Shown piece after piece: positions 18,642 through 22,517 of a DNA stretch of 43,513 nucleotides. The first letter of the stretch is position 1. Every line of letters begins with the position of its first letter. The stretch lies in contig JACTUC010000003.1 in NCBI GenBank assembly GCA_015660995.1, positions 94,525-138,037 of the forward strand, read 5' to 3'. A model generated the notes under the pieces. That model searched no databases. It saw only the letters and a program-made list of their open reading frames with translations, and was not told the DNA's origin. The stretch is from Candidatus Methanomethylicaceae archaeon (lineage in GTDB: Archaea > Thermoproteota > Methanomethylicia > Methanomethylicales > Methanomethylicaceae). A program made the translations under genes and the position numbers.

Positions 18642-19739
18642 TTGATCAGTAGGGATGACGTCCTTGGGATTCTAGGAACCTATGACAAGGAGCACCTGAC
18701 CATCGGCACCCTTGGCAGCCACTCGGCCCTTGACATCGTCGACGGCGCCAAGGACGAGGGATTCAGGACCGTGGTCGTGTGCCAGGAGGGGAGGGAACTC
18801 CCATACAGGATGTATCGAAGGATCGTGGACGAGGCAATAGTCCTTGAGAAGTTCAGCCAGATAACTAAGGACGACGTCCAGTCTGCCCTGAGGGGGAAGA
18901 GCACGATCTTCGTCCCCCACAGGGCGTTCACGACATACGTCCCCTACGACGAGATAGAGGGGAAGTTTCTCATCCCATTGTTCGGGAATAGGCAGATCCT
19001 CAAATCGGAGGAGAGGACAGCAAGCAGGAACCAGTACTACCTACTTGAGAAGGCGGGGATCAGGCAGCCAAAGAAATTCAGATCACCTATTGATATTGAC
19101 CGTCTTGCGATCGTGAAGGTTCAGGAAGCCAAGCGCAGGATCGAGAGAGCATTCTTCTACGCCACCGGCGAGAAGGACTTCTGGGAGAAGGCCGAGAAGA
19201 GGATAGCCTCTGGCCTGATCAGGAGGGAGGACTTAGAGAAGGCGGTGATCGAGGAGTTTGTCATTGGGACGTACTTCAACTTCAACTACTTCTACTCGCC
19301 ACTGAGGAAGGAGGTGGAGTTCATGGGTATAGACAGGAGACTCCAGACTAACCTCCATGACTTTGTCGCGCTCCCCGCAAAGCAGCAACTCGAAGTGGAC
19401 GTCGTGCTGCAGAACATTGAGATTGGCCACATGGGTGCGACTGTTAGGGAGTCAATGCTGGAGCAGGTTTTTGAGATCGGGATCAAGTTCGCCGATGTGG
19501 CGAAGAGGGAGTACTCACCGGGGATGATCGGTCCCTTCGCGCTGCAGGGGGCTGTCAACAAGGAGCAGGAGATCGTGATATTCGATGTGTCCCCGAGGGT
19601 GCCCGGTAGCCCAGTAATTGGGACGACGAGCCCTTACACGAAGTATTCGTACGGCAAGCAGATGAGCGTCGGGAGGAGGATCGCAGTTGAGGTCCGCGAG
19701 GCAGCAGAGACGGACAGCCTGAGGGAGGTAGTAACATGA
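18642..19739 (+). CDS. purP: PurP-family ATP-grasp protein, divergent copy
   Basis: PurP joins formate to AICAR with ATP (FAICAR synthetase), replacing folate-dependent PurH in archaea. The 365-residue protein has the family's N-terminus (MISRDDVLGI...TIGTLGSHSALDI) and matches throughout. TTG 18642 is the only fitting start. Where its neighbour has the ATP-grasp loop [10 protein letters not shown], this copy reads VQEAKRRIERAF (near 160-171): all glycines are lost. It also reads VPHRAF where the neighbour reads VPHGTL. It therefore probably has changed ATP or substrate handling. It overlaps the next gene by 4 nt. Confidence 0.85.
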   Translation: MISRDDVLGILGTYDKEHLTIGTLGSHSALDIVDGAKDEGFRTVVVCQEGRELPYRMYRRIVDEAIVLEKFSQITKDDVQSALRGKSTIFVPHRAFTTYVPYDEIEGKFLIPLFGNRQILKSEERTASRNQYYLLEKAGIRQPKKFRSPIDIDRLAIVKVQEAKRRIERAFFYATGEKDFWEKAEKRIASGLIRREDLEKAVIEEFVIGTYFNFNYFYSPLRKEVEFMGIDRRLQTNLHDFVALPAKQQLEVDVVLQNIEIGHMGATVRESMLEQVFEIGIKFADVAKREYSPGMIGPFALQGAVNKEQEIVIFDVSPRVPGSPVIGTTSPYTKYSYGKQMSVGRRIAVEVREAAETDSLREVVT

Positions 19740-20773
19740 GGGCGACGGTTGCCACGATAGGGTCGCATTCTGCCTTGCAGATACTCAAGGGTGCCAAGGA
19801 TGAGGGCCTGCGGACGCTTCTTCTCTGCATCAAAGGGAGGGAGGAGCTCTACGAAAGGTTCGGGCTGGCTGATAGCATGATTACGATAAAAAATGTTGAA
19901 GACCTTCTCGATCCCAAGATCCAGGAGAAGCTTCTCGATGAAGACGCCATCATTGTCCCGCACGGCACGCTGATCTCGGGCGGGAAGCTGGATGAGTTCG
20001 AGAAGCATTTCAGGCCGAAGGTATTCGGGAACCGCTTCATATTCAAGTGGGAGTACGACCGGGAACTCAAGGATAGGATCCTGAAGGAAGCTGGGATAAG
20101 GATCCCGCAGAGGTTCTCACCCAGCGACAGTATTGACCGGCCCGTGATCGTAAAGCTCCCAGGCGCTGAGGGAGGTAGGGGTTACTTCGTTGCCAGGGAC
20201 TCTAAGGACCTGGAGAGGAAGCTTAAGAGCTTCTCCCAGAAGGGGCTCCTGAAGAGAGGTGAGGATGAGGAGATCTTCGTCCAGGAGTACATAGTTGGGG
20301 TTACGGTTTACCCGCACTACTTCTACTCGCCTCTCAATAGCAAGGTAGAGCTGCTTGGATGCGACAGGCGGTACGAGACGAACGTTGACGGGATGGGCAG
20401 GATCGGAGCCAAGGATCAGCTAGAGCTTGATCTAGTGCCGACTTTCAGGGTAGTCGGGAACATCCCCATTGTCTTGAGGGAATCTATACTGATGGAGGTC
20501 TTTCAGGCGGGGGAGGGATTTGTCAAAGCCTCAAAGAAGCTTGTGAAGCCGGGGATAATCGGTCCGTTCTGCCTCGAGATGGTATGCGACGAGGAGGGCA
20601 GGCTCTTTACATTTGAGTTCTCTGGCAGGATAGTCGCGGGAACGAACCTCTTCGTCAATGGCTCGCCATACAGCGACCTACTGTACGCAGAGCCGATGAG
20701 CATGGGCAGGAGGATCGCGAGGGAGATAAGAGAAGCTGCACAGAATGGAAAGCTCACCGAGGTCACCACCTAG
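19736..20773 (+). CDS. purP: Formate-dependent FAICAR synthetase PurP, canonical copy
   Basis: The 345-residue second PurP has the full ATP-grasp signature [19 protein letters not shown] (near 135-153) and [10 protein letters not shown] (near 74-83). It lacks the first ~16 residues of the longer copy, starting directly at [16 protein letters not shown]. It is translationally coupled (ATGA) to the divergent copy. Known chemistry: formate + ATP + AICAR to FAICAR. The tandem pair suggests either a hetero-oligomer or two different substrates. Confidence 0.9.
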
Positions 20774-20783
20774 GTGCTCGAAA

Positions 20784-21491
20784 GTGTACCACCTTAAGTG
20801 CTCGAAGGATGATATCGCAAAGAGAGTCCTGACCTGTGGGGATCCAGGCAGGGTCTCCAAGATAGCAGGGATGCTCGAAGGGGCAAAGCTGGTGAACAGC
20901 AACCGAGGGCTCCTTGTGTACACCGGCCAGTACAAAGGCGAGGCAGTCACTGCAGCAACCACAGGAATGGGCGCACCCTCTGCAGCGATAGTCAGCGAGG
21001 AGCTTGCCATGCTGGGGGCGAAAGCCTTGATTAGGGTCGGGACGACGGGCGCGATAGCTAGTGGCATTATTCTTGGCGACATAATCATACCCACGGAAGC
21101 CATCCCTTTGGACGGGGCAACCCAGGCATACATGAAGATCGGGGGAGTACCTAGGGCAGACCCCGGAATAGTGCAAGCTTTGAAGGAGAGGCTTGGGAAA
21201 AGCGGTGCTAGGTTCCACGTGGGCAGAATTTGTACCAGCGACACGTTTTACTTAGAGGAGGAGAAGGATGCGCAGACCTGGGCGGCAAAAGGAGTGCTCA
21301 GCTTTGAGATGGAATGCTCAGTCACTTTCGCCATAGGTATCCTGCGCGGGTATAGGGCAGGCGCGATCCTCGCTGCAACTGGAAAGATCTATGGGGAGGA
21401 TGATAGGGTCCTGGAGATCTCAAAGACACAGGAGAGCATAGATCTTTGCATAGCATCGGCCCTTGACGTTGCAACAGGTCTTACCATATGA
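20784..21491 (+). CDS. Uridine/purine nucleoside phosphorylase family protein
   Basis: The 235-residue protein is of the hexameric PNP/UDP superfamily. VLTCGDPGRVSKIA (near 16-29) binds phosphate, ATTGMGAPSAAIVSEEL lies near 65-81, LIRVGTTGAIA near 92-102, and GVLSFEMECSVTFAI near 182-196 holds the ribose-binding Met-Glu. It splits nucleosides into base and ribose-1-phosphate; base preference cannot be read from sequence. The frame extends up to ATG 20745 inside purP, but GTG 20784 with AGGTG 8 nt upstream fits family length better. Same operon as the PurP pair. Confidence 0.9.
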   Translation: MYHLKCSKDDIAKRVLTCGDPGRVSKIAGMLEGAKLVNSNRGLLVYTGQYKGEAVTAATTGMGAPSAAIVSEELAMLGAKALIRVGTTGAIASGIILGDIIIPTEAIPLDGATQAYMKIGGVPRADPGIVQALKERLGKSGARFHVGRICTSDTFYLEEEKDAQTWAAKGVLSFEMECSVTFAIGILRGYRAGAILAATGKIYGEDDRVLEISKTQESIDLCIASALDVATGLTI

Positions 21492-21655: not shown

Positions 21656-21711
21656 CGCGTTTACATCAAGTACCATACCCAACAGCAACATGGGATTTTG
21701 ATTCAAACGCG
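21656..21711. repeat. Long hairpin-forming inverted repeat upstream of the structured RNA
   Basis: CGCGTTT (21656-21662) pairs with AAACGCG (21705-21711). Inside this, TCAA (21666-21669) pairs with TTGA (21698-21701), and CCC (21778-equivalent position 21678-21680) pairs with GGG (21692-21694). It ends 40 bp before the structured RNA. It could be a regulatory element or a separate small RNA. Confidence 0.45.
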
Positions 21712-21750
21712 AATATGACAAGTTAAGTAAAGCCTCTGTCTATTATCTGA

Positions 21751-22015
21751 TTGCCGCAGTTAAGGCGAAGAGGGCCTGCAACAGCAAATGGCGGGAAACT
21801 ACGGGTGGAACAACCCTTAGCGGGGAAGGAAAGCCCGGAAGCACTGTCAGGCGCAAAGAGCAGGATGCGTGATGGGACGATCCAGGGCGTCAGGATAAAA
21901 TCGGACGCCACGGCCAAAGGCAAGTCATAGCATGGGAACAACGGAAGATGGAGTCGACCCATGGACCGATTCCTGAACCGGGGTTCTCCCTGAGATTCGC
22001 ACTTAACTGCGGTTT
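21751..22015 (+). ncRNA. Candidate structured RNA, about 265 nt, family unknown
   Basis: The ends pair strongly: 21754-21764 (CCGCAGTTAAG) with 22002-22012, then GCGAA (21765-21769) with TTCGC (21996-22000) around a single bulged A, then AGGG (21771-21774) with CCCT (21988-21991). Inside are several hairpins: GGCGTC/GACGCC around 21886-21908, CATGGG/CCCATG around 21939-21966, and GAAC/GTTC near 21975-21986. Linkers are purine-rich (GGAAAC, GGAAGGAAAG), as in ribozyme-like RNAs. It is GC-rich inside AT-rich flanks. A TATA-like TTAAGTAAAG sits about 28 bp upstream on the plus strand. I could not fit RNase P, SRP or group I/II intron cores. Confidence 0.65.
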
Positions 22016-22103
22016 CTATTTTGGAACTACCATTTTCTCATGATTTTTATCCGATTTTCATATATACAATCAGATAAAACTGTATTAGCGCGGTGGTTTT
22101 CGG

Positions 22104-22517
22104 ATGGCAAGGCCTAGGAAGGGGATCAAGTATTACCTGCAGCTCGAGGCAGAGCTGAAAGCGGCGATAGAAGAGATGAACTACGGAACTTCCCTAGTTG
22201 TGGTCGAGGGAAAGCACGACGAGGATGCATTAAGGAAGATCGGCCTAAAATCTCCGGTGGTTCAGTTCTGCAACTGTGGGCTACCTGTCTTCGCTTTTGT
22301 CGACGGGATAGTAGAGAGCTATCGAGGTTCAACAGTAGCAGTGCTTTTGGACTTTGACAAGGAGGGTACGAAGATGAGTGAGAGGCTGAGCAAGGAACTC
22401 GAAGAGAGAGAGGTTAAGATAGATCACTTCCACCGCAAGAGGTTGGCGGAGATTCTTACCAAGGAAGGAGTCTTCAGAATAGAGGAACTTGCGCAGATCA
22501 TTTCCAGGGCGTCCTAA
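22104..22517 (+). CDS. Small Toprim-domain protein
   Basis: The 137-residue protein is little more than a Toprim domain. LVVVEGKHDEDALRKIG (near 31-47) holds the catalytic-type Glu and VAVLLDFDKEG (near 78-88) the DxD. This is the compact type related to RNase M5 and small primase-like proteins, not a full DnaG. A TATA box (CATATATAC, about 45 bp upstream) and GGTGG precede the ATG. It lies 88 nt downstream of the structured RNA. RNase M5 processes 5S rRNA in some bacteria; whether this one acts on RNA is inference. Confidence 0.8.
   Translation: MARPRKGIKYYLQLEAELKAAIEEMNYGTSLVVVEGKHDEDALRKIGLKSPVVQFCNCGLPVFAFVDGIVESYRGSTVAVLLDFDKEGTKMSERLSKELEEREVKIDHFHRKRLAEILTKEGVFRIEELAQIISRAS

Follow-up and report, generated by a model that had tools for sequence, protein, structure and literature searches.

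Between a PNP/uridine-phosphorylase family gene and a gene for a small toprim-domain protein, the genome of a Candidatus Methanomethylicaceae archaeon (GenBank assembly GCA_015660995.1, contig JACTUC010000003.1) carries a spacer segment that folds strongly and raises the question of what it encodes. The whole stretch of DNA analyzed (43,513 nt, positions 94,525 to 138,037 of the contig) is called the window, and coordinates are counted from its first letter. A sequence-only reading had proposed a large structured RNA at this locus, either a diverged relative of an RNA already known or one of a new class. Comparative analysis now identifies window positions 21753-22013, on the plus strand, as a previously undescribed structured RNA gene of about 262 nt; the mature RNA would span approximately the same positions. 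A literature search of open-access papers found no description of it.

The reading favored here, given a probability of roughly 55% as a whole, is that of a new RNA class. The RNA would be transcribed from its own promoter as a free-standing gene, and would fold into a four-way junction of one long closing helix and three arms. Two copies would then pair through a palindromic kissing loop in the third arm (arm C) to form a homodimer, an asymmetric internal loop in the second arm (arm B) would provide a likely binding site for a putative protein or ligand, and the dimer would act as the scaffold of a ribonucleoprotein.

Conservation of the structure and of its strand

Covariation among relatives, proposed as a check by the sequence-only reading, was assessed in an alignment built by sequence only (mean pairwise identity 69%). 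The 43 consensus pairs are formed in 96.9% of alignment cells, and 15 of them carry two-sided changes, compared with 6.6 in shuffles, a level reached by none of 500 shuffles. When the 3′ partner was slid by 1-3 columns as a control, pairing dropped to 30-44%. G-U and U-G pairs account for 81 cells and A-C and C-A for 8; since each G-U pair would be an A-C mismatch on the reverse strand, selection acts on the plus-strand RNA. The plus strand is also the stabler one in 30 of 31 copies. For the window copy, the minimum free energy (MFE) of the plus strand is -106.4 kcal/mol (z = -3.99), with none of 200 dinucleotide shuffles as stable, and the minus strand folds more weakly. The conserved element is an RNA structure, and it is carried by the plus strand.

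These strand asymmetries bear on a DNA-level explanation, in which the element would be a cruciform, a protein-binding palindrome or a small mobile element. Near-identical dispersed copies would fit such an element, as would the near-perfect palindromic arms in two genomes (G005 and G010) and the tip of arm C, which is a DNA palindrome too. However, the 81:8 ratio and the strand bias in stability point to RNA, no transposase-like open reading frames (ORFs) were recognized beside the copies whose neighbors were read, and no copies were found in the viral, phage and plasmid collections searched, so that a DNA element is highly improbable. Protein coding does not account for the conservation either. 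No long ORF had been seen at the locus, and no conserved ORF was found among the copies; the sole recurrent AUG, within a CCAUGG motif, opens frames of 4-50 codons that differ between copies, and a small conserved ORF starting there was rejected for this reason.

A compact four-way junction

Single-sequence MFE folding of 31 copies gave one closing helix of about 16-22 pairs followed by exactly three arms in 27 of them, with a mean z of -8.1. The arms typically occupy positions 25-114, 115-183 and 184-239 of the RNA, and abut without unpaired nucleotides between them. In this layout, a closing helix of about 20 bp (P1) and arms A, B and C meet in a four-way junction that has hardly any joining bases. 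The parts in the window copy are as follows.

21752-22016, plus strand: RNA gene, span of covariance model R1 (218 bits, E 1.3e-62), with every helix inside it
21753-21769, plus strand: 5′ strand of the terminal helix P1 (MFE fold; 97.4% of alignment cells paired, with two-sided changes at 5 pairs)
21996-22013, plus strand: 3′ strand of P1, on the same basis
21775-21864, plus strand: arm A (folds and alignment), with a strongly conserved base, CCUGC/GCAGG
21865-21933, plus strand: arm B, with the stem AUGCGUGAU/GUCAUAGCAU, a conserved asymmetric internal loop and the apical hairpin GGCGUC/GACGCC
21934-21988, plus strand: arm C, a hairpin with a palindromic apical loop (folds)
21959-21964, plus strand: the arm C loop palindrome, palindromic in 31 of 31 copies

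The 16-bp terminal helix with one bulge (21754-21769/21996-22012), closing about 230 nt, that the sequence-only reading had described is present exactly, and it grows by one G-U pair (21753-22013) and three G-C pairs (21772-21774/21987-21989). The "at least three" internal hairpins of that reading correspond to the three arms.

Arm B is the best-conserved part in sequence; its internal loop presents GGGACGAUCCA opposite CGACCGCGG(A/U)AAG in most copies. The distal part of arm A is variable and usually ends in a stable tetraloop, but forms a very long near-perfect helix in two genera. The copies of genera g6 and g7 are far diverged in sequence and keep the same layout, with the arms stretched into near-perfect helices; the copy in G010 (locus L099) is 284 nt long and folds with -204.6 kcal/mol. 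No other evidence argues as strongly for the importance of this shape as its recovery from sequences so unlike each other. Both genus g6 copies (L098 9757-10061, -202 kcal/mol, and L099 9796-10079, -205 kcal/mol) form an almost perfectly paired cross, and their long perfect arms suggest that the helices have been repeatedly regenerated.

Distribution, and the relation to known RNA families

The window's GTDB family, in Methanomethylicia, comprises Ca. Methanosuratincola, Methanomethylicus and their kin, and is represented by 22 genomes. A DNA search of 61 genomes recovered copies in 17, all of this family. Model R1, built from 24 copies, detected the RNA in 22/22 family genomes (E 1e-80 to 3e-6), and a second model, R2, to which divergent copies had been added, did so at E ≤ 1.2e-22, raising the weakest member to E 1.2e-22; the RNA is thus family-wide. 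With R1, it was absent from 18/18 other genomes of the class, including the only other genome of the same order, and R2 gave no convincing match outside the family across the class. In a 398-genome sample of the phylum, two weak scores alone were obtained outside the family with R1. The outside scores from the class (both models) and the phylum (R1), at 21 bits in G390, 18 bits in G193 and 14 bits in G030, are weak and chance-like. An exact 28-base pattern searched in about 85,000 GTDB species representatives matched 16 stretches, all of Methanomethylicia, in records named Ca. Methanosuratincola, Ca. Methanomethylicus and Methanomethylicota.

A scan of the whole window with the Rfam covariance models, also suggested by the sequence-only reading, returned one tRNA only; at the RNA locus there was no match at E up to 10. 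The relatives of the RNA match no Rfam family at gathering level, and their sub-gathering scores are to microRNA hairpin models and the like. No match to the OLE, GOLLD or ROOL models was found at the locus, or in the relatives at gathering level. The misfit to RNase P, signal recognition particle (SRP) and group I intron cores noted earlier was borne out. The archaeal RNase P RNA (RF00373) and SRP RNA (RF01857) models do not match the locus, and the true genes lie elsewhere in the same genome (G000:C3:39615-39912, 213.5 bits, and G000:C7:64900-65211, 137.4 bits, respectively). A group I intron was rejected, as no Rfam match was found and the locus sits in the spacer between two intact genes, interrupting none. 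The locus could instead encode a far-diverged representative of an established family (RNase P/MRP, SRP, group I intron or another Rfam family), an idea that draws on the size and long closing helix, which resemble those of RNase P or SRP RNA; the absence of Rfam matches and the canonical RNAs encoded elsewhere largely refute it, and its probability is very small. Of the two options left by the sequence-only reading, the new class is favored, by the strong covariation across 22 species, the lack of an Rfam family, and the presence of the RNase P and SRP RNAs at other sites. Neither of the two results that would have counted against that reading and were looked for, missing covariation and a clear Rfam hit, was obtained.

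A separate observation concerns genus g5, in which no RF00373 match was found in 4/4 genomes (G004, G009, G014 and G017; loci L107-L110; completeness 80-92%), with the SRP RNA found in 3/4; the RNase P RNA of this genus may be unusual.

Genomic sites and the predicted transcription unit

In every family genome, one copy lies between the PNP-family gene and the small toprim gene, within the conserved order purP-purP-PNP-RNA-toprim-GNAT-thermosome. Further copies were found at unrelated sites in five genomes of three genera (G000, the window's own genome, G002, G003, G008 and G016). Nine complete ones among these further copies are followed by other genes, often on the opposite strand; the neighbors that were read are housekeeping genes, those for Alba, a small heat-shock protein and ribosomal proteins being examples, named from sequence and not by family search. 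Despite differing neighborhoods, four of the dispersed copies, belonging to three genera, group together in a single well-supported clade. The RNA is independent of its genomic site.

The assembly of the window's own genome is interrupted at two or more additional near-identical copies, which brings the number of copies to at least four. Contigs end inside such copies (L082 1-121 and 11850-11915, L083 1-121, and L081 7940-8005). RNA halves lie at both ends of contig C16, which had suggested a circular element of 11.9 kb; this was rejected because ribosomal-protein and other housekeeping genes are present on the contig, and the halves are therefore collapsed repeats. Two near-identical copies in this genome have about 57 bp 5′ of the RNA in common; their similarity stops immediately outside this stretch and immediately 3′ of the RNA. 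Hence what was duplicated is the promoter together with the RNA, the pattern to be expected for an RNA gene. The flanking features are listed below.

21698-21702, plus strand: TTGAT, promoter-like upstream element near -52 (T at -54 in 29/33 copies)
21723-21727, plus strand: TTAAG, weak TATA-like box at -30 (A at -27 in 32/33 copies)
22013-22024, plus strand: U-rich tail TTTCTATTTTGG, a likely terminator, recurring 3′ of the RNA in most copies
20745-21491, plus strand: upstream neighbor outside the RNA, PNP/uridine-phosphorylase family gene (Pfam PF01048, E 7.8e-39; syntenic)
22104-22517, plus strand: downstream neighbor, small toprim-domain protein gene (PRK04017-type model, 51 bits, under the cut-off), adjoining the RNA across the family

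The copies share the TTGAT/TTGC element near -52, a weak TATA-like box near -28 and the U-rich tail. A TATA-like box had been noted before, and proves to be a weak one; the conserved -52 element had been missed. The recurrence of the same promoter-like stretch at dispersed copies makes a free-standing RNA gene most likely, and free-standing transcription is strongly supported by these comparisons; the upstream elements would serve as promoter and the tail as terminator. A promoter shared with the SRP and RNase P RNA genes was rejected, since those genes have ordinary TATA boxes in the same genomes and no -52 element upstream. Among the stable RNA genes compared, the combination of the -52 TTGAT/TTGC element and weak TATA box (window 21698-21727) is specific to this RNA, and the -52 element may mark a dedicated transcription factor.

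The position of the toprim gene suggests two other accounts. It starts some 20-120 nt 3′ of the RNA on the same strand across the family, as it would if the RNA were a cis-acting 5′ leader of this gene, namely a riboswitch or a protein-binding autoregulatory leader. A cis-regulatory element should keep a consistent downstream gene, but the dispersed copies differ in their neighbors. In addition, the U-rich tail separates RNA and gene, the toprim gene outside the family has no space for such a leader, and the whole neighborhood is conserved, which makes the adjacency weak evidence for one. A leader function is quite unlikely. Alternatively, the RNA might be a partner or substrate of the small toprim protein, which would trim P1 or bind the RNA; this protein resembles RNase M5, an enzyme that matures 5S rRNA and cleaves the ends of double-stranded RNA. 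The adjacency is strict within the family, and the similarity of the protein to the RNase M5 model is weak (18.5 bits, where the cut-off is 110.65); the protein also matches the small toprim proteins of PDB 2i5r/2fcj at E ~8e-4. The toprim gene, however, occurs without the RNA in other families of the class, which weakens the link between the two, and its neighborhood is conserved as a whole. Such a partnership is considered unlikely, and a free-standing gene remains the preferred reading.

Two side observations concern the neighborhoods. Two tandem PurP-type genes (DUF1246/DUF1297; window 18642-20773) lie 5′ of the PNP gene, both under the NCBIfam cut-offs. An Alba-like gene adjoins a dispersed RNA copy in two genera (L080 9052-9648 and L094 4372-4749), in opposite orientation relative to the RNA.

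A palindromic loop and predicted dimerization

The apical loop of arm C typically consists of a purine followed by CCAUGG. Of the six-base palindromes, 28 are CCAUGG and two are CCUAGG, and the most divergent copy has UUAUAA; no copy carries a single change that disrupts its palindrome. The central AU or UA are adjacent, and are unable to pair within one molecule. In the OLE and GOLLD RNAs, palindrome-to-palindrome switches in loops were taken as evidence for intermolecular kissing in a cryo-EM study of OLE, GOLLD and ROOL (PMC12286853). The loop of the new RNA likewise stays palindromic when it changes, as expected of a homo-oligomeric RNA, and this evidence, from few events, is of moderate strength. 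A second palindrome, CCGCGG in arm B, is a candidate second dimer site; it is not kept in all copies (CCAAGG and CCGAGG also occur).

The conserved loop also holds a start-codon context, and a trans-acting antisense regulator pairing its exposed CCAUGG with mRNA start codons might be envisaged. The three copies with CCUAGG or UUAUAA, however, keep the palindrome and lose the complementarity to AUG, and such a regulator is very unlikely.

Several points weigh against the proposed dimer and its scaffold role. The dimer rests on just three departures from CCAUGG, and one of the three copies (L104) has an ambiguous arm C fold. A hairpin with a two-nucleotide loop would equally preserve the outer C-C/G-G pairs. 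The arm B internal loop is lost in G010, which keeps the arms alone, and so cannot be indispensable everywhere. Given the few switch events and the ambiguous copy, homodimerization through the arm C kissing loop is put at an even chance. The role of the dimer as a ribonucleoprotein scaffold with a putative protein partner is proposed by analogy with OLE, and is somewhat less likely than not.

Significance and comparison with known systems

To our knowledge, few large structured archaeal RNAs have been described beyond rRNA, RNase P, SRP and guide RNAs. The present RNA, which occurs throughout a family of methyl-reducing methanogens, has been duplicated in several genera and keeps a compact four-way junction, is very likely functional. 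The claim of novelty concerns an RNA class to which no relative is known, and does not extend to a new biochemical activity. The group includes the isolate Methanosuratincola petrocarbonis LWZ-6 (PMC12244365), so that the expression and partners of the RNA can be tested. If the RNA dimerizes, it would extend RNA-only assemblies to archaea, and offer structural studies a system of unusually small size.

Archaeal RNase P RNA (RF00373) and SRP RNA (RF01857) are likewise about 260-310 nt long with a long closing helix, but they are encoded by genes of their own in the same genomes, and with another type of promoter. The HIV-1 dimerization initiation site (DIS) kissing loop is comparable in motif only, and not as an RNA, to the predicted dimer contact. 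GOLLD and ROOL, two orphan structured RNAs, use kissing loops for self-assembly (PMC12286853), as is predicted for the new RNA; they differ in being much larger bacterial or phage RNAs that form multimeric nanocages, whereas the new RNA was not found in the viruses and phages searched. The OLE (Ornate Large Extremophilic) RNA is likewise free-standing, structured and lineage-limited, and dimerizes by a symmetric kissing loop whose palindrome has switched in evolution (PMC12286853), as the new RNA is predicted to do. It differs in being bacterial and much larger, and in having the partners OapA and OapC; its covariance model finds no match here. With a chance a shade short of even, the RNA may represent a new archaeal dimer-forming class, a counterpart of the OLE-type RNA-only complexes built on a near-perfect four-way junction and universal in one family of Thermoproteota methanogens.
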